Origin: Macrolepiota albuminosa
Lineage: Eukaryota; Basidiomycota; Agaricomycetes; Agaricales; Agaricaceae
Direction of reading: 5' to 3'
Assembly: GCA_027475525.1 (NCBI GenBank)
Contig: JAMWFC010000113.1
Span: forward strand, 2,592,001-2,656,000
DNA: 64,000 nucleotides
The position numbers and the translations under genes are program-made. Shown here piece by piece: positions 15,879 to 29,372 of this stretch (its first letter is position 1; every line of letters begins with the position of its first letter). The notes under the pieces were generated by a model. That model saw only the letters and a program-made list of their open reading frames with translations, ran no database searches and was not told the origin of the DNA.

Positions 15879-16138
15879 AATAATAAGATCAATACTTTAC
15901 GATGGAATACTTAGCGCGAGAGGAGGCAGCGACATCTTTAAAAACACTAGACTTGAGTATTGCTCACAATTCAAGGGAAACTACTGTCTAAAGTTGACCG
16001 TCATGCTGTTGCCCAAGGGTACCTTTACCAATCGGAGGAGTTCGGCTACTTTTCGGTAAAATACGGTCGATAAGATCTTTGAGCGAAGATTGATCATAAC
16101 TCTCAAAAATTTGTGCTAACCTTATATCATCTGCACAA

Positions 16139-19100
16139 ATGGCGAACGAACGTCTCGCCAAAGTTGTCGCGAGATTACAGAATCTGCCCTCCATCTCTCT
16201 TCCTACTGATTATCCAAGACCGACAGGTGCTAACAAGGTCATCGAGGCAGCCCATGTCGCACAACTTTCAGAACAAACATCTCTGAGCTTGCTCAAGCTT
16301 GCACTCTACGGTGAAAGCGAGAGTGTGGAAGACGACGACAGTGTCGATGAAAACAGGCCTTCCGCGTTTCATCTCTTGTTGGCAGCGTTCACTGTGCTGC
16401 TGCATCGTTACACGGGAGACACTGATGTTGTTATTGGTTCTTCATCCGCGACTGAACGAGATCCTCTGGTTCTGCGCATATCAGTGGAGCCGACAGATCC
16501 GTTCTGGGCTGTCGTACGACGTGTGCAGCAGGTAGAGAGAGAGGCTGAAGGGGATGCAGTTCCTTTCGATGTCCTTACTAAGGAACTCAACAAGGACAAG
16601 GACGATGGCCTTGAATCTCCCATCTTCCGTGTTCGTTTCTTCGATGAAACTGATAAGCCACAAGACACTTTCATTCTATCAACAAGTCTGACCTCCGATC
16701 TTACAATCTTTGTTACCCGACCCCCAGTCTCAACACGCTCAGCCTTGGCGCCGCATATATCACTCCGTATCATCTACAACTCACTTCTTTTCACCGCGAG
16801 CCGTATCTCCTGCATAATTGATCAGCTTTCGGTTCTCCTTCGCAAGGTTTCCGCAGTCCCTCTTTCACCAGTAGGCGCCGTCCCTCTTCTCACGCCTGCA
16901 CAAAGGGCCAAGCTCCCCGAACCCACTTCTGATCTTGACTGGTGTGGGTGGAAGGGAGCTATCACTGATGTCTTTTCTCGTAATGCGCGTCAATGGCCAG
17001 ATCGGCCTTGTGTTGTTCAGAGCATTCCAGCTGCATCCCTCACTGACGTCCAGGATCGCATCACATTCACATACAGTCATATCTTACATGCTGCCAATAT
17101 ACTGTCACACCATCTCATCAAAGAGGGTATCCAGAGAGAAGAGGTGGTTATGATCTACGCGCACCGTAGTGTCGACCTTCTCGTTGCTGTCATGGCTGTG
17201 CTCAAAGCTGGTGCTACGTTCTCAGTCATTGGTCAGCTCAGACTTTGATTTTTCTTCTTCTTTTTCTGAAGTTAACAATCCAGACCCGGCCTATCCTGCC
17301 TCACGACAGATCGTCTACCTTCGTGTCGCACAACCACGTGCATTGGTCGTTCTCAAAGGCGCTGGCACCATCAGCCCTCCAGTTCGCGAGTTCCTGTATG
17401 CCGAGTTGAAAATCCGCGTCGAGGTTCCTGCACTGGAAGTTCTCCCTGGAAATGGTATCGCTGGAGGAATCGGAGCAAATGGAGTAGATGTACTTCAGCC
17501 TCACTTGCATCTTGCTGACATTGACCCTAATGTCACTCTCGGACCGGACAGTATTGGCACTTTATCATTCACGAGTGGAAGTACCGGTATTCCCAAGGGT
17601 GTAAGAGGGCGGCATTTCAGCTTGACTCATTTCTTCCCGTGGATGGGTGAAAGGTTTGGTTTAAATGAAACTTCCAAGTTCACCATGTTAAGTGGCATTG
17701 CACATGACCCCATCCAACGCGACAGTGAGCGTTTCTGCCTCAACGTCTAAGCTGTACTCTAACAAGTCTTAGTGTTCACCCCTCTCTTCTTTGGCGCACA
17801 GCTCCATGTCCCCACAGTTGATGATATTGGCACTCCAGGGCGTTTAGCTGAATGGATGGCTGCCAGCGAGGTTACCGTCACCCATCTCACCCCTGCCATG
17901 GGTCAACTCCTCTCAGCTCAAGCCACATGTCAGATTCCTTCTCTCCGCAGCGCATTCTTCGTAGGTGATGTGCTTACCAAGCGTGACTGTCTTCGCCTCC
18001 AAGCTCTCGCTGCAAATGTTTGCATCATCAATATGTACGGTACAACAGAAACCCAACGCGCGGTGTCGTACTTTGCCATCCCCCCAATTTCTGAAGACTC
18101 CACGTTCCTCGCCACACAAAAGGACATTATGCCTGCGGGTGAAGGAATGATTGACGTTCAATTACTGGTAGTCAACCGTAACGACAGGAATATTCCATGT
18201 GCCATCGGCGAAGTAGGCGAGATCTACGTCCGCTCAGGTGGCCTCGCAGAGGGTTACCTCGATGCTGACGCGACTGCAGAAAAGTTTGTGAATAACTGGT
18301 TTTCTGCCAGTAGATCACCGCGAAGAGATACCATCCGGCACCCGGTCGAGGACCTCGCTGGTCCCGAGTCACGACATTGGAAGGGAATTCGGGACCGCAT
18401 GTATCGTTCTGGAGATCTCGGGCGTTACTTACCCAGCGGCATTGTTGAGTGTACTGGGCGTGCAGACGATCAGGTGAAGATTCGGGGGTTTAGGATTGAG
18501 CTTGGGGAGATCGACACGCATCTCAGTCAGCATCCGCTTGTACGAGAGAACGTCACATTGGTTAGGAGAGATAAGGACGAGGAGAAGATCCTGGTCAGCT
18601 ATTTTGTGCCACTTGATGCACCAGATCTCCAGGCCTATGCCAGTGACATACAAGAAGAGGAGGGGGACAAGGGTTTGGCGAGGGGTATCCGCAAGTACCA
18701 AAGACTTATCAAAGATATCAGGGAGCACTTGAAGAAGAAGCTTCCAAGTTACAGCGTACCAACACGTAAGGAATCCACTCGGTTCGACTTACAGATAATT
18801 AAACGAAAGTTGACACAGTTTTCGTTCCATTGAGACGTATGCCTCTGAACCCCAATGGCAAGATCGACAAACCCGCCCTTCCTTTCCCAGACACAGCGAG
18901 TGCGGCGACGACAGCACTACAGGCGGAAAAGGGCTCTTCAACGGAAGAGACTATGCGTGTGATCTGGTCGAACCTGCTTCCAAGTGCACCTCAGCCTATA
19001 CCGTCCGACGAAAGCTTCTTTGACCTGGGTGGTCATTCCATACTAGCCACACGCCTTATCTTCGAAATTCGCAAGGTGTTCGTTGTAAACGCTCCATTAG

Positions 19101-20677
19101 GCCTCGTTTTCGACGAACCGACGATCGATGGTCTCGTACGTGCTGTTGATGCTCTTCGTAATGCGGACCTTGGGCTTGAGACCGCAAATGGTGCTCCAAC
19201 TTCATTTGGTGCGCCTAGTGATAAAGCTACCGCTGTTGCCGTTGAGTACGGACAGGATTACAACGAGTTGCTCCCTCGACTCAAAGCTTCTTATCCATCT
19301 CTCCCTTCCGATTTCCACCAACGACCACTTACTGTGTTCCTCACCGGTGCCACCGGCTTCCTGGGCGCTTTTGTGTTGCATGACCTGCTCTCGAGAGAGG
19401 GCAGGATTCAGAAAGTCGTCTGTCTCGTTCGTGCTTCTACTGTGGAAAAGGGCCTAGCGCGTTTGAAGGAGGGTTCAACAGACCGAGGTGTTTGGAGTGA
19501 CTCTTGGGTGTCGTCGGGGCGGCTAGAGGTGGTCACGGGAGATCTTGGTCTAGATCTATTCGGACTTGGGCAGGACACTTGGGATCGAGTAGCTCAGGAG
19601 GCTGATGTTGTGCTTCATAATGGTGCATTGGTGAGAAATTTTCTTCTGCCTTAGAAAAGCGTGTTTTTCATCATGATTTAGGTCCACTGGGTATACCCGT
19701 ATGAAAAACTACGGGCAGCTAATGTAATTGCTACGATGACGGCGATCACACTTGCTTCGACAGGGAAGCCCAAGAACATGGTGTTTGTGTCCTCAACGTC
19801 GGCTGTAGACACCGACCACTATGTGCAACTTTCCGAATCGATGTCGTGTGGGCGGTCTCCGTATTCCGGTGTGCCTGAGAACGATGACCTGGAGGGTGCC
19901 AGGTCTTCACTCAAGACGGGGTACGGCCAAACGAAGTGGGTCTCCGAAAAGCTGCTGTTTGAAGCTGGCAAAAGAGGTCTCAGTGGGCATATCGTACGTC
20001 CTGGATACGTTGTGGGAGACTCGCGTACAGCAGGTGAGCTCATCCGTTCTTCCGTCATTCTCGTCGGTCCCTTTCTGACAATTATCTTTTTTTGCTATGA
20101 AGTCACAAACACCGACGATTTCATTTGGAGATTAGTCAAGGGATGCATCCAGCTTGGTCTTGTGCCTGACATGAATAACACTATCAACATGGTACCCGTT
20201 GACCATGTGGCCCTTTGTACGACTCTATCAGCGATATCGCCTCTCCCGGATGCTTCGATGACCGTTCTTCACATCACTGCTCGGCCACTCCCCACCTTCA
20301 ACAGCATGCTGTCATCTCTGAAACGATACGGGTACGCGACAGAACCCTGTGAATATGTCGTCTGGAGGAGAAAGCTCGAGCAGCACGTCATGGAAGTTCA
20401 AGACAACGCACTGTTCCCTCTCCTACATTTCGTCCTTGACGATCTCCCAACGAGCACTAAAGCACCGGACCTGGATGATACCAACACGACGGCGTTGTTG
20501 CGGCAGCATTCCGGGGACCTTGCAAGGACAGTCGGTGAACCACTCATGGGTCTGTATATCGCCTGGCTTGTCGCGGCTGGGTTCCTCCCGTCGCCTTCAC
20601 TTGCATCACCAGAAAAGCAACTCCCACGCCTGGCAAACGCTGGGACTGTAAAAGCCGCTGGACGAAGCGGCGCTTAG
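16139..20677 (+). CDS. LYS2: L-2-aminoadipate reductase, large subunit (LYS2)
   Basis: This enzyme reduces alpha-aminoadipate to its semialdehyde, using ATP and NADPH on a phosphopantetheine arm, in fungal lysine synthesis. Six exons (16139-17231, 17284-17724, 17773-18765, 18819-19630, 19682-20033, 20103-20677) give 1421 residues, the normal size. The N-terminus carries the LYS2-type LPTDYPRP segment and a condensation-like region. The adenylation domain shows [22 protein letters not shown] and a long C-terminal part ending [15 protein letters not shown] carrier domain follows with the phosphopantetheine serine in [12 protein letters not shown]. The thioester reductase domain begins [19 protein letters not shown]. 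All introns are 48-69 bp with GT-AG ends. The gene is complete and shows no sign of damage. It needs a phosphopantetheinyl transferase encoded elsewhere. Confidence 0.95.
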
Positions 20678-20768
20678 GGCTTGATTTAAAAAAAGACTTA
20701 AGAGAATCTCAGAGATTTGAAACAAAATGTAATAATACTAATATCGTTGTCTTCTTTTAAATTTGATG

Positions 20769-20960
20769 TTACACGATACGCCCGTGCATGACTCTCTTGA
20801 GCCTTTGCGATACTAAGGTGTCTGTGATGCCAATATCCATATCCGGTTCCTCATCTATAGACCCATCCGGTGTGGCGCTCATCCTCCCATCCTTGACGTG
20901 AATCCAACCGCGGTTCTCGGCAGCCCACGGACTGATCTTTGCAAAGTTACGACATATCGA
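20769..20960 (-). pseudogene. C-terminal fragment of the UstYa-like gene, copy 1
   Basis: On the minus strand this reads CRNFAKISPWAAENRG, VKDGRMSATPDG, then a short acidic tail ending MHGRIV and a stop. It matches the C-terminus of the intact UstYa-like gene at 21.6-22.9 kb (CRNFGKIREWAAENRG, VKDGRISATPDG). No upstream exons are present, so it is a truncated tandem duplicate. Confidence 0.75.
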
Positions 20961-21060
20961 AGATAAGGGCTTGATTTTCTAAAGAAAACAGAAGATTTGA
21001 AACAAAACGTAATTGTACTAGGATCGTTTTCTTCTTGATTTGCTGTTTATGATAAGGACA

Positions 21061-21300
21061 GCACGATACGCCCGCGGATGACCCTATTGGGCCTTAGGTG
21101 CCGAACTGCGCTACTAGGGTCTAGGACCCATCATGATGGCGATGGGTAATGATGCCCCACAATCCATGTCATGTCCATAATCCGGATCCGCATTCGGTTC
21201 CTCATCTATAAACCCATCCGGTGTGGCGCTAATCCTTGACATACATCGAGCGGTTTTCGACAGCCCACGGTGATCTTTGCAAAATTGCGACAACCAGGTA
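21061..21300 (-). pseudogene. C-terminal fragment of the UstYa-like gene, copy 2
   Basis: This is a second partial copy, with the block SRISATPDGFIDEEPNADPD in frame on the minus strand and upstream sequence (LSQFCKDH) frameshifted relative to the intact gene. The motif acgatacgcccg downstream of each copy (about 20774, 21064, and acgatacaccc near 21523) shows that all three share one duplicated 3' region. Confidence 0.7.
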
Positions 21301-21567
21301 CGATATCGGAAATACTCGCCTGGATTGTCGCGGTGGCTGGGGTTCCTCCCGCCGCCTTCACTTTGTATCACCCGAGAAGCGACCCAAACCGCTGAACTGG
21401 ACGAAGCCGCGCTCAGGGCTCGATCAAATGTTTGTAAGACTATGATTATTGCAGAGATTTGGAACAAAATGTAATACATAATACTAGTATCGTTTTCTTC
21501 TGATGCTTATGATTGTCACAACACGATACACCCTTAAACGACCATCTCGGGCCTTGGATACCAGAGT

Positions 21568-22886
21568 CTACGCCCCATCATGATGGTGATGGTGATGGCC
21601 CATCCCCATCCCCATCCCCATCCCCATCCCCATCTCCATATCAATATCCATACCCGTCCCATGTCCAAACCCATCAGGAGTAGCGCTAATCCTCCCATCC
21701 TTAACATAGATCGACCCGCGATTCTCAGCCGCCCACTCCCTGATCTTGCCAAAATTACGACAGCTATGCACGATGTCGAATCGGGGGCCCTCGCGTGGTG
21801 AGGATGATGAGGATTCGGGCTTGGAGTCGTGTTCGGGTTCGGGTTTGCGCCAGACGATGGTGCTGATGTCCGCGGAGCACTGGACAGACTGGCGTAATGA
21901 GTTGAGACAGTGCGTTAGGTGCGTTCGGCGCGTGGTGGAAGCCATTGCGTTCGTGGTGTTGTAGTAGTGTTCTGATGGGATATGTGAATGAGCGACCGAG
22001 CGAGAGCGTGTGTGGGCGGAGACATACGAGGATACAACGCCTTCCTGATCATATTCTAAATGCGGAGTGTAGATTAAGTTGAGGGAGGATTAGGAAGGCG
22101 GAATGAAAGGAAATGAATAGAGGACGCACGATGCAGTGGAGTTCATGGAAGACGTCAAGGAGCATGATGTATTTGTTGTCGCTGTTTGGGACTCGCATTG
22201 TTGTGTTGGCGAGTTTAAGAGCTTGTTGTTCGGTTAGTTCTGATATTCCGACTGTTTAATTGTATGTAGAGTGAGTTATGAGGGATGAGGGATGAGGGAG
22301 GTACGAACAGTTGTACAAGTCTTCCCAAGCAGCGTCGACTTTCTCAGAAGGAGGCATGGTGTACATGTCGTCGCCTTCGCCATTGAGACCACTACGGAAC
22401 TTGACGACTTCGTATTCCACGATATCTTCCACCGGGGCTGTTCCCCCCACAAAAAAGGGAAGAAACAACGAAACAAAGAACAAAGAAACAAAGAACTCGT
22501 CAGCCTCGAAACCCCACACGACACGACAACCACAGGAAAAAAAACGCACAATAAAGCACCTGTGGATTCCCGTTCCAGTTCCCGTTGCCGTGCACAAAAG
22601 CGTGGTTGGCTTTGACCTCGGCTTCGGCTTTGACTTCGGCTTTGACTTTGACTTTGACTTTGGCGAGGAGGAGGAAAAGGACGAAGAGCGTGACGAGCTG
22701 CATGAACGCGACGACACCGATGGTCCATACCGGGATTGACGCGCGTTTGGTCATTAACCTGCGGGCAGGCAGGAGGTACTTTGTTTCGTTCGGATGTGCA
22801 GTGTCTTTTCCTTCTTCTTCTTCTTCTTCGTCGTCGTCGTCGTCGACGTGGGCATGGGTATGGGGGAGAAGCGGCTCGTAGAGCAT
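21568..22886 (-). CDS. UstYa-like oxidase, DUF3328 family
   Basis: UstYa-family proteins are fungal membrane-anchored oxidases that modify or cyclise ribosomal peptides in the secretory pathway. From ATG at 22886 the protein has an acidic N-terminus (DDDDDEEEEEEGKD), one transmembrane helix (VWTIGVVAFMQLVTLFVLFLL), and a Lys/Ala/Val-rich linker. After introns at 22438-22549, 22252-22308 and about 22129 onward, family landmarks follow: LYSPVEDIVEYEVV, PPSEKVDAAWEDLYNFGIS, and both conserved HXXHC motifs, HELHC and HLTHC, the second followed by CLNSLRQSVQCSAD. The C-terminal HSCRNFGKIREWA block is also typical. The end is odd: Met-Gly dipeptides and six consecutive His. It is divergent from the repeat-peptide gene at 23468, with about 580 bp between starts. 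The exon between the two HXXHC motifs is uncertain. An in-frame ATG seven codons upstream could be the start. Confidence 0.85.
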
Positions 22887-23467
22887 GGATTTCGGTGGTG
22901 GACGCATGAGGGTGAGTAAGCCCGGGGTAAGGTAAGGTAAAGATGATAGCGAGGATAAAGAAAGTCTTATAGACAAGCGGCAAAAGTCGCTCTTGAGAAT
23001 GGTTTGGCTTCTGCCCCGTATACGTCGCGGTCGAGTGATTTATCAGCTAGCCTACCCTACCCTCTTCGGATAGGATATACTGTACGGAGTCAGGATTTGT
23101 GCGTGGAATCACGGTTTGTGGAGTCGAGCGGCGTTTAACTCAGCTGTGTAGCGCGTCTTTGCGTTCGTCAGGGAAAGCTTGATACCTTTTGTTGACGGGA
23201 AAAGAACCAGCACGGTATTATGGATGTTCCTTTCGGTCTGCGAAGCACTTTTGGAGCGGCGAGAAGACGGTGGGAGAAGATGGGGCGTTGACTCGGGGTT
23301 CATAAGATATGACCGTGGATGACGGAGTGGGTATGTGTGTGTGATGTGTGTGAGCTTGCATCGATGTCGTATGCAAGTCACGCTTGCATGGGGAGTGGTA
23401 TAAAAACAGAGGATGAGGAGAATCAAGACAGTATCGTCTGTTGTCTGTTGATCCCTTTGTCTTTGCC
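22887..23467. promoter_or_regulatory. Divergent promoter of the UstYa-like and repeat-peptide genes
   Basis: A TATAAAAA box at 23399-23406 lies 62 bp before the ATG at 23468. Just upstream the word CTTGCAT occurs twice directly (23355-23361, 23383-23389) and once inverted (ATGCAAG, 23371-23377), within 35 bp. Such a cluster is a plausible transcription-factor site, possibly shared by both genes. Confidence 0.5.
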
Positions 23468-24799
23468 ATGATGAGATCGTTTGCTATCCTCTACCTTTTC
23501 GTCGCTGTTGCTGTTGCTGTGCCCGTTGTTAATGAAGCTACAGGTGCGTTAGTCGATGGTGGTTTGAGAGTGGACAGGCGTCTTATAATTGCTTGTGCAG
23601 TGGACGATGGTATTAAGCTTTACGAGCGAGTAGTAGATGCCGCTACTGGTTTGTCCAGACCATTTCTTGGAAAGATAACAGATTCATGTGGCTATAGTCG
23701 ATGACGGCAGTAGATGCCGCTACTGGTTTGTCCAGACCATTTCTTGGAAAGATAACAGATTCATGTGGCTATAGTCGATGACGGCATCAAGCTTTATGAG
23801 CGAGGAGTAGATGCCGCTACTGGTTTGTCCAGACTATCTCTTGCAAGGACAAGAGACTCATGTGGTTGTAGTCGATGACGGCATCAAGCTTTATGAGCGT
23901 GGCGTAGACGCCGCTACTGGTTTGTCCAGGCCATTTCTTGCAAGGACAAGAGACTCATGTGGCTGTAGTCGATGACGGTATCAAGCTTTATGAGCGAGGA
24001 GTAGATGCCGCTACTGGTTTGTCCAGACTATCTCTTGCAAGGACAAGAGACTCATGTGGCTGTAGTCGACGACGGCATCAAGCTTTATGAGCGTGGCGTA
24101 GATGCTGCTACTGGTTTGTCCAGACCATTTCTTGGAAAGACAACAGATTCATGTGGTTGTAGTCGATGACGGCATCAAGCTTTATGAGCGTGGCGTCGAG
24201 GCTGTGACTGGTAATACTCGCTGATTTCACAGAGTCTCTGGACTGACTCACGGAACGTTAGTCGACGATGGTATCAAGCTCTACGAGCGTAATGTTGAGG
24301 CTGCAACTGGTAAGTGTGTTCCCTTTGTATATCGGCTCTGAATTGACAACCCCAGTCGATGACGGCATTAAGCTTTATGAGCGTGGCGTCGAGGCCGTCA
24401 CAGGTGATACTCGCCAATTTCACAGAGTCTCGAGACTGACTCGCAGAACGTTAGTCGACGACGGTATCAAGCTCTACGAGCGTGATGTCGAGACCGCGAC
24501 CGGTAAGCAGGGTCTCTTGTATATCGGCTTTGAATTGACAACCCCAGTCGATGACGGCATCAAGCTTTATGAGCGTGGCGTCGAGGCCGTCACTGGTAAT
24601 ACTCGCCAATTTCACAGAGTCTCTGGACTGACTCACGGAACGTTAGTCGACGACGGTATCAAGCTCTACGAGCGTGATGTCGAGGCTGCGACCGGTAAGC
24701 AGGGTCTCTTTGTATATCGGCTCTGAATTGACAACCCCAGTCGATGACGGCATCAAGGTTTACGAACGAGGGACGGGAGCGAAATGGAATTTTGTTTAA
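23468..24799 (+). CDS. Secreted multi-repeat peptide precursor, 12 mini-exon repeats (RiPP-like)
   Basis: Exon 1 (23468-23543) encodes a signal peptide (MMRSFAILYLFVAVAVAV) and PVVNEAT. Eleven exons of exactly 48 nt follow, each bounded by phase-1 introns and encoding one 16-residue unit of type VDDGIKLYERGVDAAT. They lie at 23601, then (after one 77-bp artefact) 23775, 23872, 23969, 24066, 24163, 24262, 24356, 24455, 24548 and 24647. A final exon (24741-24799) has a variant unit ending GTGAKWNFV and a stop. DDGIK and YER are invariant, and each unit holds one Tyr; variation is confined to the G/D/N/V and D/E positions and the AA/AV/TA end, apart from the last unit. There is no KR or RR site. 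The arrangement beside a DUF3328 gene matches fungal RiPP precursors (dikaritin type). The product and its processing are inferred. Another possibility is a repeat-rich secreted wall or signalling peptide. Confidence 0.75.
23601..24799 (+). repeat. Exon-intron tandem array (97-bp units, then 193-bp double units)
   Basis: Units 1-6 repeat every 97 bp (48-nt exon plus 49-nt intron beginning gtttgtccag). From unit 6 the array changes to a double unit of 192-193 bp (unit starts 24163, 24356, 24548, 24741), in which a 51-nt intron (gtaatactcg...gttag) alternates with a 45-46-nt intron (gtaag...accccag). Introns are nearly as conserved as exons, so whole exon-intron blocks have been copied. Confidence 0.9.
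23632..23786. repeat. Exact 77-bp tandem duplication #6
   Basis: 23632-23708 equals 23709-23785. It breaks the 97-bp periodicity of the mini-exon array exactly here. Removing one copy gives a normal 48-nt exon and restores the 97-bp spacing. Confidence 0.9.
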
Positions 24800-24835: not shown

Positions 24836-24880
24836 GACTGTTAGTCGACGATGGCATCGGGCCGTGTACATTTTTACAAT
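24836..24880 (+). pseudogene. Remnant of a 13th repeat exon, beyond the stop
   Basis: After the stop codon the sequence 'gactgttag' plus 'tcgacgatggcatcg' reproduces an intron end and the VDDGI start of a repeat unit, then similarity is lost. The retroelement begins at 24881, so the array was probably longer and has been trimmed. Confidence 0.6.
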
Positions 24881-25166: not shown

Positions 25167-27718
25167 ATGGCTGGTCAGCAAAACCCTCGTGGACGGGGAT
25201 CCAGGGTCGTCAACCCTCCCGTTGCTCGCACGCTGCGCCCTTCTTCTATTCTTCGTGGGCAAGGGGAGCGCCACAGTTCCCCTGAGAACTTTCAGGGCGG
25301 GCATCTCGACACCCCTCGCCTTCCTGAGCCTCGCCTTACTGAGCTTCCTGAAAACGTTTCTCCTGCCCCGCAGGGCGGACCTCCTGATATTGCGGCCACG
25401 CCGGGACCGGTCCCCGAGTCTCATTCAGGCACTCGGCGAGATCGTTCCCCGTCTGCTCACTCTGGCAACCGTAGCTCGCCTCCCATTCCGCCTGCAAAGC
25501 GATCTCGAGTTCGCCAGGATCGTGAGGAGGACGCGTCGCCTGACGCGACTATTACCGCCGACGTCGCGGACGCATATATGCAGTCCTCCGTCCCCGTGTT
25601 CGCAAATGACGGACATTTTCGTACCCCCGGACCTGCTCCTCGGTCGAGCCAGGTACCGGCTGCACCTTCGAGAGCCCCTGTTGTTTCTGAGGCGCCTGCG
25701 AATAATCTGTATCGCGCAGCTTCCCCCGGTTCTCGTCACCTGGGGAACATGAGTGACGACGAGCGTGTCATTACTATGACGGACTCTATTTTGTTGCAGC
25801 TCTTTCAGGCGCACGGCCTGGAGCTCGATCGCAATGGTGAGTTTCTTTTCCTACTCCGTCCGGTTTCCCATACCTTCAACTTGGGCATGTGCGTGGCGCG
25901 GTGCGCTTTTATTGGCGCTGTGCGCACTCTTTCTGGCGCTTTGCGCACTGTTACCTGGCGCTTTGCGCACCTTTGACTTGTTGGCACACTGTGCGATTTG
26001 TTGGTGCGGTGCGCACTTCTTGGTGCGGTGCGCACTTCTTGGTGCGGTGCGCACTTCTTGGTGCGGTGCGCACTTCTTGGTGCGGTGCGCACTTCTTGGT
26101 GCGGTGCGCACTTCTTGGTGCGGTGCGCACTTCTTGGTGCGGTGCGCACTTCTTGGTGCGGTGCGCACTTCTTGGTGCGGTGCGCACTTCTTGGTGCGGT
26201 GCGCACTTCTTGGTGCGGTGCGCACTTCTTGGTGCGGTGCGCACTTCTTGGTGCGGTGCGCACTTCTTGGTGCGGTGCGCACTTCTTGGTGCGGTGCGCA
26301 CTTCTTGGTGCGGTGCGCACTTCTTGGTGCGGTGCGCACTTCTTGGTGCGGTGCGCACTTCTTGGCGCGGTGCGCACTTCTTGGCGCGGTGCGCACTTCT
26401 TGGCGCGGTGCACGTTTTGTGCACTCTCCTTGTGCACAGCGTTCTTCGTAACTTTGCCTTGCGCATAGACCTCGGCGCCTTGCACGCGCCCTTTTCTGTC
26501 ATGCCGTGTTTTTCCTTGGCTTTTGTGCCGCGTTTTCATTTCTTGCTTAAACGCGTTTCAACGTTGACCTTTATTCGTATAGAACTCTTGCAACACATCC
26601 ACGCGGTTCATGATCGCGTGGGTAACACTGCTCGTGTTGCGTCTGCCCCTGTTGGAGGCATCGCTCTCGGGGAGGTCCCGAATTCTCCTGCATTGCGCGC
26701 GAATTCTCCAGCATTGCGCGATTCCGCTCCGGTACCAACGAGCCTCCCTCACATTTTGAGCGCACCTGCTCACCGACCCCCAGGCATGTTGCTGAACCCC
26801 GCTCCTCACGTCGCTCACCCATCCCCGGGCGCTGCCTCAGGCCGGGTTTTACATGGGCTGCCCCCTGCTGTCAGCCGGTTGCTGTCCTCAGCCGACAAAG
26901 TTTACCCTCACAAAGTTGTACGAGCGCTGGAACAGGGCATGCTGGAATACATTCCTCTCGATCTCTTAACTGACGAGGCCTGTCGGCGAGCGACTCGGGA
27001 ACCACCCCCTCCGGACTCTTCCTTCGTCTTCGCAAACGGCAAACTTCGTCTGCCCAGCGCTGCCTTCGACATCTCTAAAGAGTCGAAACTCAGCTTTGAT
27101 GATTGGTTGGCCGCATCGGACAACCTGGTCGGTGCCATGCGTGTTCATCTTCGTGCCGGTTCAGACAGTGGCTCAGGGGGTCCCGTTGCTAATGCGATCG
27201 CCGATTCGTTCGCAGCCCACTTCAAACGGCTCAAATCTCGCCCTAATGCACGGGTCGAATACAATATCATCATGGATTACGACCAGCGTTTACGTGCTTT
27301 ATTTCTTCGCGAATCCCATTCCTTTCGCATGGATACGTTCCAATCTGACGTCTGGGAGGAATGCGTTGCTACGATGCATGCCCAGCGAGTCTCTAGCCTC
27401 GATCACCGTTTGCTTGAGATGGAGTCCTTTCTGGCGCGGTCTAAATCTGCCCCTGCGAAGTCTGCATCATCCGCATCCTCGTCCGTCCGTTCCAAATGTT
27501 TGTCCTGCGGATCTCTTGAGCACAAACTCTCTTCCTGTCGTGCCACTCCCCGATTTCTCCGTCGAGAGAACAGGACTTGGCGCACCCCCTCGGGAGCGTC
27601 AGTCTGCTTTGCATTCAATAACGTCTCCTCCTGTGACAGAGGGACAAAGTGTGCGCATTCCCATGTTTGCTCCCTATGCGGGGCTTCGGCTCACGGCGCA
27701 CAGACATGTGCCGCTTGA
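25167..27718 (+). CDS. Gag-like ORF1 of the Ngaro/PAT-like element
   Basis: Exon 1 (25167-25836) starts MAGQQNPRGRGSRVVNPP and is Pro/Ser/Arg-rich and probably disordered. A 746-bp intron (25837-26582, GTGAGT...GTATAG) holds a minisatellite. Exon 2 (26583-27718) resumes ELLQHIHAVHDRV and includes a helical region (LLSSADKVYPHKVVRALEQG) and Cys/His-rich segments near the end: CLSCGSLEHKLSSC, a near CCHC knuckle, then CDRGTKCAHSHVCSLCGASAHGAQTC. This is expected to be the nucleic-acid-binding structural protein of the element. A long unspliced frame also runs through the minisatellite from 25889, but its translation is just the 19-bp repeat and I do not accept it. The joint predicted by the intron gives a coherent reading frame (DRN then ELLQ). 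Confidence 0.7.
25990..26413 (+). repeat. 19-bp minisatellite inside the gag intron
   Basis: The unit ggtgcggtgcgcacttctt is repeated about 21 times in perfect register. The last few copies change to ggcgcggtgcgcac, and decayed units flank both sides (gctgtgcgcactctt near 25918, gctttgcgcac near 25939 and 25963). Each unit contains the palindrome GTGCGCAC. Confidence 0.95.
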
Positions 27719-29372
27719 GGAGCTTTTTCCTGTGTCCACGCCTCTAAAAGCGGATTGTTGGGAGTTTTCCTTACGAGACGCTGGGGTCCTGGACCTCTTT
27801 GCGGAGGTGCCGAAAGGCCTCCGTTCTGGGTTCGATATTGGCATTGATTCCTGTAAACTTGACCGTTCCTTCTCTCCTCCAAATCATTTTCGTTCCGCTG
27901 AGGCTCGTACTTTTGTTGTGTCTAAATATTCCGCCGAAGTGGCGCTTAATAGGGTTTCGCCGGGATTCTATCCCCATATCGCTGAACAACTTTTTGGACC
28001 TTTTCGCTCTGCACCGCTCAACGTTATTACCAGTTCGGGAGGCAAACTTAGAATCACTCTCGATCTCTCTTATCCTCGACATAATCCGAATCATTCTTCA
28101 ATAAATTCTTACATCGACTCCGATAATTTCCCCTGTGATTGGGGTACCTTTTCCGCATGCTGGCTCTTGGTGGCAAACAGCCCCGTAGGAACTCAGGTCG
28201 CCGTCTTCGACGTTGAATCTGCCTTCCGCATCATTCCCACACGTCCACAGGACTGGCCGAAACTTGCTGTCGTGATTGATGGGATTGTCCATTATGATTT
28301 CCGACTGAATTTTGGCGCATCTTCCGCTCCGGGTGTATTCGGTCGCGTCGCAGATGCTGCCGCGTGCATTTTCAAGCATCGCGGGGTTGATGACGTGCTG
28401 AAATGGGTGGATGATTTTATATTTTTCAGATATCCACTATCCTCTTCTGCGCCTCACTCATATTCCTTTGACGAATCCCTTATTCACAACGTCGCAGACG
28501 AACTCGGCTGGCCTTGGTCACCTGACAAGCACTCCCCCTTTTCGGATTCCTTTGTCTATATCGGTTTCCTATGGTCTTTGTCGGCTAAGACCGTGGAACT
28601 GCCTAACAACAAAATCTGTAAGTATCTTTCGAAACTTGACGACTGGGATGCGAACGGCACCGTTACACTGAAGATGACAGAGTCTTTGATCGGCACTCTG
28701 AATCATGTGTGCCTTGTTCTGCCTGCAGGTAGATCTCACCTCCCATCTCTGTTTGCATTTCGCGCTCGTTTCGCACGATGTCAAAGCAGCTTTGTCCGAC
28801 TCACACCAAACGGGGCTGTCAAAGAAGACATCGCATGGTGGCGGTCATCATTACGAGACAGCTGGTGCGGTTCGCACGTTGTTCGGCCTCCGGAGCCCCT
28901 CGAGCTAGACATTTACGTCGACGCATCAACCTCATGGGGTATCGGCCTCGTCGTTAATGGAAAGTGGCTGGCATGGAGATTGCGGCCTGGTTGGAAGAAC
29001 GATGGTCGAGACATCGGATGGGCCGAAATGGTAGCGGTTGATTTAGCAATCCGCGCTCTGGCAACTGCAGGCTTCTCGCATTGTCACCTAGTCTTGAAAT
29101 CAGACAATTCGGGAGTCGTGGGCGCATTGGCGGCTGGCAGATCCCGAAACGCACAACAGAACGCCATTTTGCGCCGGATTGTGGACGTTTTCCAATCTCG
29201 CTCGATGTGGGTCTCTATTACATGGGTGGCTTCCGAAAACAATAAAGCGGATGCACCTTCTCGTGGTATCTTCCCTTCTCGGAAACAGCTTTTTCCTTTT
29301 CCCCCTCGTATTCCTTCTTATTTGGCTCCCTTCGTGTTTGGCGCTGTCGAGCATCGCGTTTTGACCAGTTGA
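27663..29372 (+). CDS. Reverse transcriptase-RNase H ORF2 of the Ngaro/PAT-like element
   Basis: This ORF overlaps the end of ORF1 in another frame; the first plausible ATG (MFAPYAG) is 27663, although the frame is open from 27096. RT landmarks in order are GKLRITLDLSYPRHNPN, VAVFDVESAFRIIP (first catalytic Asp), LNFGASSAPGVFGRVAD, and WVDDF (the YxDD-box equivalent). RNase H landmarks are LDIYVDASTSWGIGL, GWAEMVAVDLAIRAL, VLKSDNSGVVGAL and ENNKADAPSRG. No stops interrupt it. The enzyme copies the element RNA into DNA. No protease or DDE integrase is present, as usual for the DIRS/Ngaro order. Confidence 0.85.
   Translation: MFAPYAGLRLTAHRHVPLEELFPVSTPLKADCWEFSLRDAGVLDLFAEVPKGLRSGFDIGIDSCKLDRSFSPPNHFRSAEARTFVVSKYSAEVALNRVSPGFYPHIAEQLFGPFRSAPLNVITSSGGKLRITLDLSYPRHNPNHSSINSYIDSDNFPCDWGTFSACWLLVANSPVGTQVAVFDVESAFRIIPTRPQDWPKLAVVIDGIVHYDFRLNFGASSAPGVFGRVADAAACIFKHRGVDDVLKWVDDFIFFRYPLSSSAPHSYSFDESLIHNVADELGWPWSPDKHSPFSDSFVYIGFLWSLSAKTVELPNNKICKYLSKLDDWDANGTVTLKMTESLIGTLNHVCLVLPAGRSHLPSLFAFRARFARCQSSFVRLTPNGAVKEDIAWWRSSLRDSWCGSHVVRPPEPLELDIYVDASTSWGIGLVVNGKWLAWRLRPGWKNDGRDIGWAEMVAVDLAIRALATAGFSHCHLVLKSDNSGVVGALAAGRSRNAQQNAILRRIVDVFQSRSMWVSITWVASENNKADAPSRGIFPSRKQLFPFPPRIPSYLAPFVFGAVEHRVLTS

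Follow-up and report, generated by a model that had tools for sequence, protein, structure and literature searches.

Does the gene pair at this locus of Macrolepiota albuminosa, a UstYa-type oxidase back to back with a predicted secreted repeat protein, form a pathway for a modified ribosomal peptide? A sequence-only reading had interpreted it as a UstYa-type peptide system, and the analysis reported here partly supports that interpretation. The window, meaning the whole stretch of DNA analysed (64,000 nucleotides, C106:2592001-2656000), belongs to a genome of 100,137,612 bases in 129 contigs. The features on which the argument turns are the following.

21568..22907, minus strand: UstYa/DUF3328 gene, five exons, 346 amino acids, no internal stop
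22907-22550, 22437-22309, 22251-22130, 22055-22028 and 21971-21568, minus strand: the UstYa exons, from consensus splice sites and the relatives' alignment
22908..23467, no strand: divergent intergenic region, 560 bp between the start codons of the two genes
23468..24799, plus strand: repeat precursor gene, 13 exons in the full-length model, 220 amino acids, 12 units
23468..23543, plus strand: exon 1, leader MMRSFAILYLFVAVAVAVPVVNEAT, a clear signal peptide by eye; kept in protein P0012 of Blastosporella zonata
23601..23648, plus strand: unit exon 1, VDDGIKLYERVVDAAT, from the splice model
23698..23725, plus strand: frame-breaking mini-exon of 28 nt, within the 126-nt intron 23649-23774 of the full-length model
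23775..24694, plus strand: unit exons 2-11, 48 nt each, from the splice model, starting at 23775, 23872, 23969, 24066, 24163, 24262, 24356, 24455, 24548 and 24647
24741..24799, plus strand: last exon, unit 12 VDDGIKVYERGTGAKWNFV and stop, from the splice model
24845..24865, plus strand: leftover start of a further unit (VDDGI) beyond the stop codon, by eye, end approximate

A coordinate check places the end of the UstYa stop codon at 21568 and that of the repeat gene at 24799, both to the base. The UstYa exon borders were set by consensus sites and alignment with relatives. The search that found the ten relatives used a 361-residue query; because these relatives showed that model to be wrong, its fourth exon was corrected, giving the final 346 residues. 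The spliced protein matches PF11807 over profile positions 5-220 of 220 (E 2.6e-48, 165.2 bits, above the curated cut-off of 25 bits), and HELHC at residues 198-202 with HLTHC at 230-234 conforms to HxxHC(x)nHxxHC, confirming the DUF3328 protein with both motifs that had been described. DUF3328 is described as a binuclear copper family with this motif as its site, which is required for activity in CctR (PMC12435403). An N-terminal hydrophobic stretch, WTIGVVAFMQLVTLFVLFLLL, was taken as a membrane helix by eye.

Among the ten relatives aligned, H198, H201 and C202 never vary, and H230, H233 and C234 hardly do; the annotated model of one of them, P0004, lacks the second motif. The four closest are 61-69% identical to the window protein, and the closest named ones come from Tricholoma furcatifolium (Tricholomataceae), Tephrocybe sp. 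(Lyophyllaceae) and Termitomyces, all Tricholomatineae, which makes a mushroom of this suborder the probable host. The C-terminal tail of the window protein is rich in Met and His. Its His-rich stretch is common to the window protein and its four closest relatives (for example HHHHGHHHHDGA in P0002 and P0004, and just GHDHH in P0005), with Met adjoining it in most of these, and is absent from the other six aligned. This tail may bind copper. The DNA encoding the C-terminus, with its Met-Gly run and six His, is a (CCCATC)n microsatellite (window 21568-21640).

The joined exons of the repeat gene form one open frame, with all 12 introns running GT..AG in phase 1; 11 of them measure 45-57 nt and one 126 nt. 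The encoded protein consists of the leader MMRSFAILYLFVAVAVAVPVVNEAT followed by 12 units, each encoded by a separate exon (of 48 nt for units 1-11), and each made of the core VDDGIKLYER and a variable tail. One Tyr lies in every core. The reported count of 12 units is right, with GIKLYER occurring in 11 of them, and GIKVYER with a different tail in the last. GIKLYER or a part of it had been proposed as the core; GIKLYER does lie within the conserved segment, which is longer than that. Neither GIKLYER, IKLYER nor VDDGIKLY is matched in the open-access papers searched, and among these the statement that no product with this core has been described stands. Every VDDG has a conserved [AV]T in front of it, the leader ending likewise: its NEAT (KEVT in P0012) resembles the unit tails. 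A single Arg follows LYE.

Pfam names were not accepted for this protein. Ten families gave matches, the best being Exonuc_VII_S (64.8 bits, above its cut-off). For nine of these families, no individual part of the protein would pass by itself, and all ten are taken as sums of weak matches across a repeat. Fibrinogen_BP, at 18.2 bits under a cut-off of 50, was likewise set aside.

I searched for relatives of the precursor among annotated proteins, in which tiny exons are easily missed. With the full-length precursor, the only match among the 7996 candidates listed was P0001, whose E of 0.7 I attribute to chance. Shortening the query brought up a single match among 4156 candidates (E 3.5e-15): P0012, the 71-residue hypothetical protein C0991_005203 of Blastosporella zonata (Lyophyllaceae). 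It consists of MKSFAILSLFVALAVAAPLVKEVT and, after it, two units that contain VDDGIKLYERGV and carry Lys in their tails. The leader and both cores are thus kept while D/E changes to K in the tail, and by this comparison leader and core, but not tail, are conserved between the genera. P0012 ends in TGKSDS. Judged from the protein by itself, this looks like translation running on from ACTG into a GTAAGT donor, and it would fit the same exon border. The homology search that had been suggested yielded one relative with a conserved core, and no further genome with the unit beside a DUF3328 gene. B. zonata does not appear among the ten UstYa matches, eight of which bear a species name, and the named UstYa species have no precursor match among the matches listed.

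The two genes are arranged head to head, as had been reported, across 560 bp. TATAAA occurs at 23399 on the plus strand, 69 nt upstream of the first ATG of the repeat gene, and the UstYa side of the region contains neither TATAAA nor TATATA. On one side of the pair lies a gene with Condensation, AMP-binding, PP-binding and NAD-binding_4 domains (16100-20677), by its domain order probably a Lys2-type aminoadipate reductase. Between them, at window 20650-21560, are degenerate minus-strand duplicates of the UstYa 3' end (~20769-20978 and ~21114-21300) and one of the Lys2-like gene end (~21310-21425), all with approximate ends; since both gene ends occur in degenerate copies, the tail-to-tail junction has undergone at least two duplications. 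On the other side is a retroelement-like stretch, then an HMG-CoA reductase gene. The retroelement-like ORFs span 25841-29369 and include a 19-bp array of 21.6 copies (26001-26411); RVT_3, the sole match in 26970-29369, is sub-threshold (17 bits, cut-off 21.6).

An intact UstYa gene divergent from a probably secreted, Tyr-containing repeat precursor under selection is, by analogy, the arrangement known from UstYa-type RiPPs, and that comparison is supported here. I give roughly even chances to the reading that the two genes are a minimal UstYa-type pathway that works like the dikaritins, the cores being released other than by ordinary Kex2 cleavage. Several observations count against it. No second genome was found to carry both genes next to each other, and a scan of 26 ORFs (the window has 91 of at least 130 amino acids) revealed nothing recognisable as a gene for a tyrosinase, methyltransferase or peptidase. 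The UstYa profile finds at least three more loci in this genome, and the other three show no tandem-repeat precursor in the stretches examined; a strict pattern recovers both HxxHC motifs in two of the three, not in the C58 plus-strand copy. DUF3328 enzymes also carry out hydroxylation or halogenation.

Those other loci have neighbours of their own. At C58 (L016 6203-6284, 6336 onward) a secreted-looking peptide of 49 residues with two Cys (MFQLRALF...SLPDCI), without a Pfam match, lies upstream of another UstYa gene, and at C9 (L018 8317 onward) a 72-residue first exon that looks like a P450 N-terminus by eye, again without a Pfam match, is head to head with a third one. A tandem repeat at L018 3163-3426, ~4 kb from the UstYa gene, is not coding-like and was rejected as a precursor.

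The strongest competitor of the two-gene pathway holds that the repeat protein gives unmodified linear peptides, or is secreted whole as a repeat protein of the wall or of signalling, while the UstYa acts on another substrate or is a chance neighbour. This agrees with the absence of KK, KR, RK and RR from both the 220-residue model and P0012, with linkage in one genome only, the UstYa and precursor matches falling in different species, and with a computational survey, in which only 103 of the 1680 KEPs from Basidiomycota lie within 15 genes of a DUF3328 gene (PMC7329392). It sits less well with the immediate divergent adjacency, with a Tyr in the most conserved part of the unit, and with DUF3328 counts that in the same survey are highest at the gene adjoining the KEP gene (PMC7329392). 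I consider it unlikely, while giving it real weight. By the same survey the idea of a UstYa-repeat pairing in basidiomycetes is not new, UstYa-KEP pairs as such being already known there computationally.

A second alternative concerns the integrity of the precursor. Positions 23632-23708 and 23709-23785 are a perfect 77-bp tandem duplication, which created the 28-nt mini-exon, flanked by the same splice sites as its sister exons. Its inclusion would end translation after VDDGSRCRYCR, soon after unit 1, leaving one unit, which counts against the pathway as well. The 12-unit protein thus rests on skipping of this exon, on a duplication-free allele, or on an assembly error. The precursor might then be newly broken in this strain, with the mini-exon included and the pathway dying here although functional in relatives: the duplication is perfect and hence recent, the mini-exon has both splice sites, its inclusion brings the early stop, and the degenerate UstYa 3'-end copies nearby indicate local rearrangement. 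However, 11 further units stay open with consensus-like introns, a 28-nt exon could be skipped, and a perfect tandem copy might equally be an assembly error. I regard such a recent loss as improbable.

Selection on the repeats was assessed among the 11 full units. The whole unit has pS 0.55 and pN 0.055, and its last six residues, the tail, have pN 0.155. In the core, pN is 0 and pS 0.515: no amino acid differs though about half of the synonymous sites do, so the core codes and is under purifying selection. The eight core columns that vary all fall on third positions of codons (P 7.7e-6 on the assumption of independent columns, to which copies related to each other do not fully conform). Within the first five units, divergence is 0.020-0.184 between introns and 0.021-0.208 between exons; with values so alike, the exons are not simply younger. 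A degenerate DNA pattern of the unit matches 12 times in the window, against 0.02 expected in shuffles, and nowhere else in the 100-Mb assembly with one mismatch allowed. A looser pattern finds the array again, its 12 exact matches being confined to it; matches with one mismatch lie scattered elsewhere, 20 of them against 8 for a control. Searches for further precursor copies gave four matches by DNA and 11 with P0012 as query, all inside the array. The idea of a noncoding minisatellite with chance open frames, which the tandem periods of 97 and 193 bp would suit, is hardly credible beside core changes that are all synonymous despite similar intron and exon divergence and a homologue in another genus, and the codon-level test rejects it as far as sequence can.

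In the two-gene pathway, then, both genes would be co-expressed, the mini-exon would be skipped and the leader would take the precursor into the ER. There the membrane-bound, binuclear-copper UstYa would oxidise each VDDGIKLYER core, of which there are up to 12, and the most likely outcome is a bond between the side chain of Tyr8 and an aliphatic residue such as Val1 or Ile5. The units would then be freed by some protease that is not the ordinary dibasic Kex2. Cutting might take place at the [AV]T-V junction found in every repeat or behind the single Arg; both sites are guesses. The sequence facts are solid, and the pair is a good candidate. As a tentative extension, rather less probable than the pathway itself, it may represent a Tricholomatineae family of UstYa-modified ribosomal peptides with one core per exon, excised without Kex2 sites, and missed by dibasic-site surveys and by gene models without 48-nt exons, whose UstYa has a Met/His-rich, copper-binding-like tail.

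The RiPPs given as characterised in two reviews are amatoxins/phallotoxins and borosins in Basidiomycota, and dikaritins and epichloecyclins in Ascomycota (PMC9233826, PMC12048977). Should the pathway prove true, the copper-oxidase route would reach into Agaricales through a mushroom UstYa peptide; if such a peptide is also made without Kex2 sites, the rules now used for mining would overlook part of the class.

The dikaritins of Ascomycota (ustiloxin, phomopsin, asperipin-2a) share with this locus a multi-copy precursor, here probably secreted, a core Tyr and a nearby UstYa/DUF3328 gene. As in those systems, several near-identical cores lie in one precursor, here 12, and a DUF3328 gene stands beside it, here divergent and in this genome only; asperipin-2a likewise has only one DUF3328 gene (PMC7329392). 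The locus differs in its basidiomycete host, its one exon per unit, and its lack of dibasic Kex2 sites and of any tyrosinase, methyltransferase or peptidase recognised nearby. Because the repeats have no Kex2 site between cores, they lack the defining release step of ustiloxin-type precursors. The dikaritin-like pairing that had been proposed hence survives as an intact UstYa gene divergent from a selected Tyr repeat precursor; with such sites absent from both precursors, neither the name dikaritin nor KEP is warranted. KEPs are defined in Umemura's survey by at least three repeats of at least 8 amino acids between KR, KK, RK or RR (PMC7329392), so a KEP-type survey would not list this precursor. 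The Basidiomycota KEPs do share the signal, putative here, and the tandem repeats beside DUF3328, and Tyr occurs in 65.6% of the repeats of DUF3328-linked KEPs, compared with 38.2% in the remainder (PMC7329392). In Pleurotus, the number of UstYa-like genes is 16 (PMC8893723).

P0012 of B. zonata shares the leader, the VDDGIKLYER core and the lack of a dibasic site, and differs in its two units in the annotated model, its tail Lys and an extra AQ between units. The epichloecyclins (GigA, Epichloe) share an internal core Tyr and an aliphatic residue at or near the core start, although GigA, whose core sequences are unlike VDDGIKLYER, is likely Kex2-processed, and the crosslink here is only putative. 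In epichloecyclins Tyr is linked to an N-terminal Ile, according to a review (PMC9233826). Finally, the plant burpitides, made in unrelated organisms by BURP-domain copper cyclases, share copper-dependent side-chain macrocyclisation, putative here, and the CctR paper compares the planar four-His site with that of the plant burpitide cyclases (PMC12435403).
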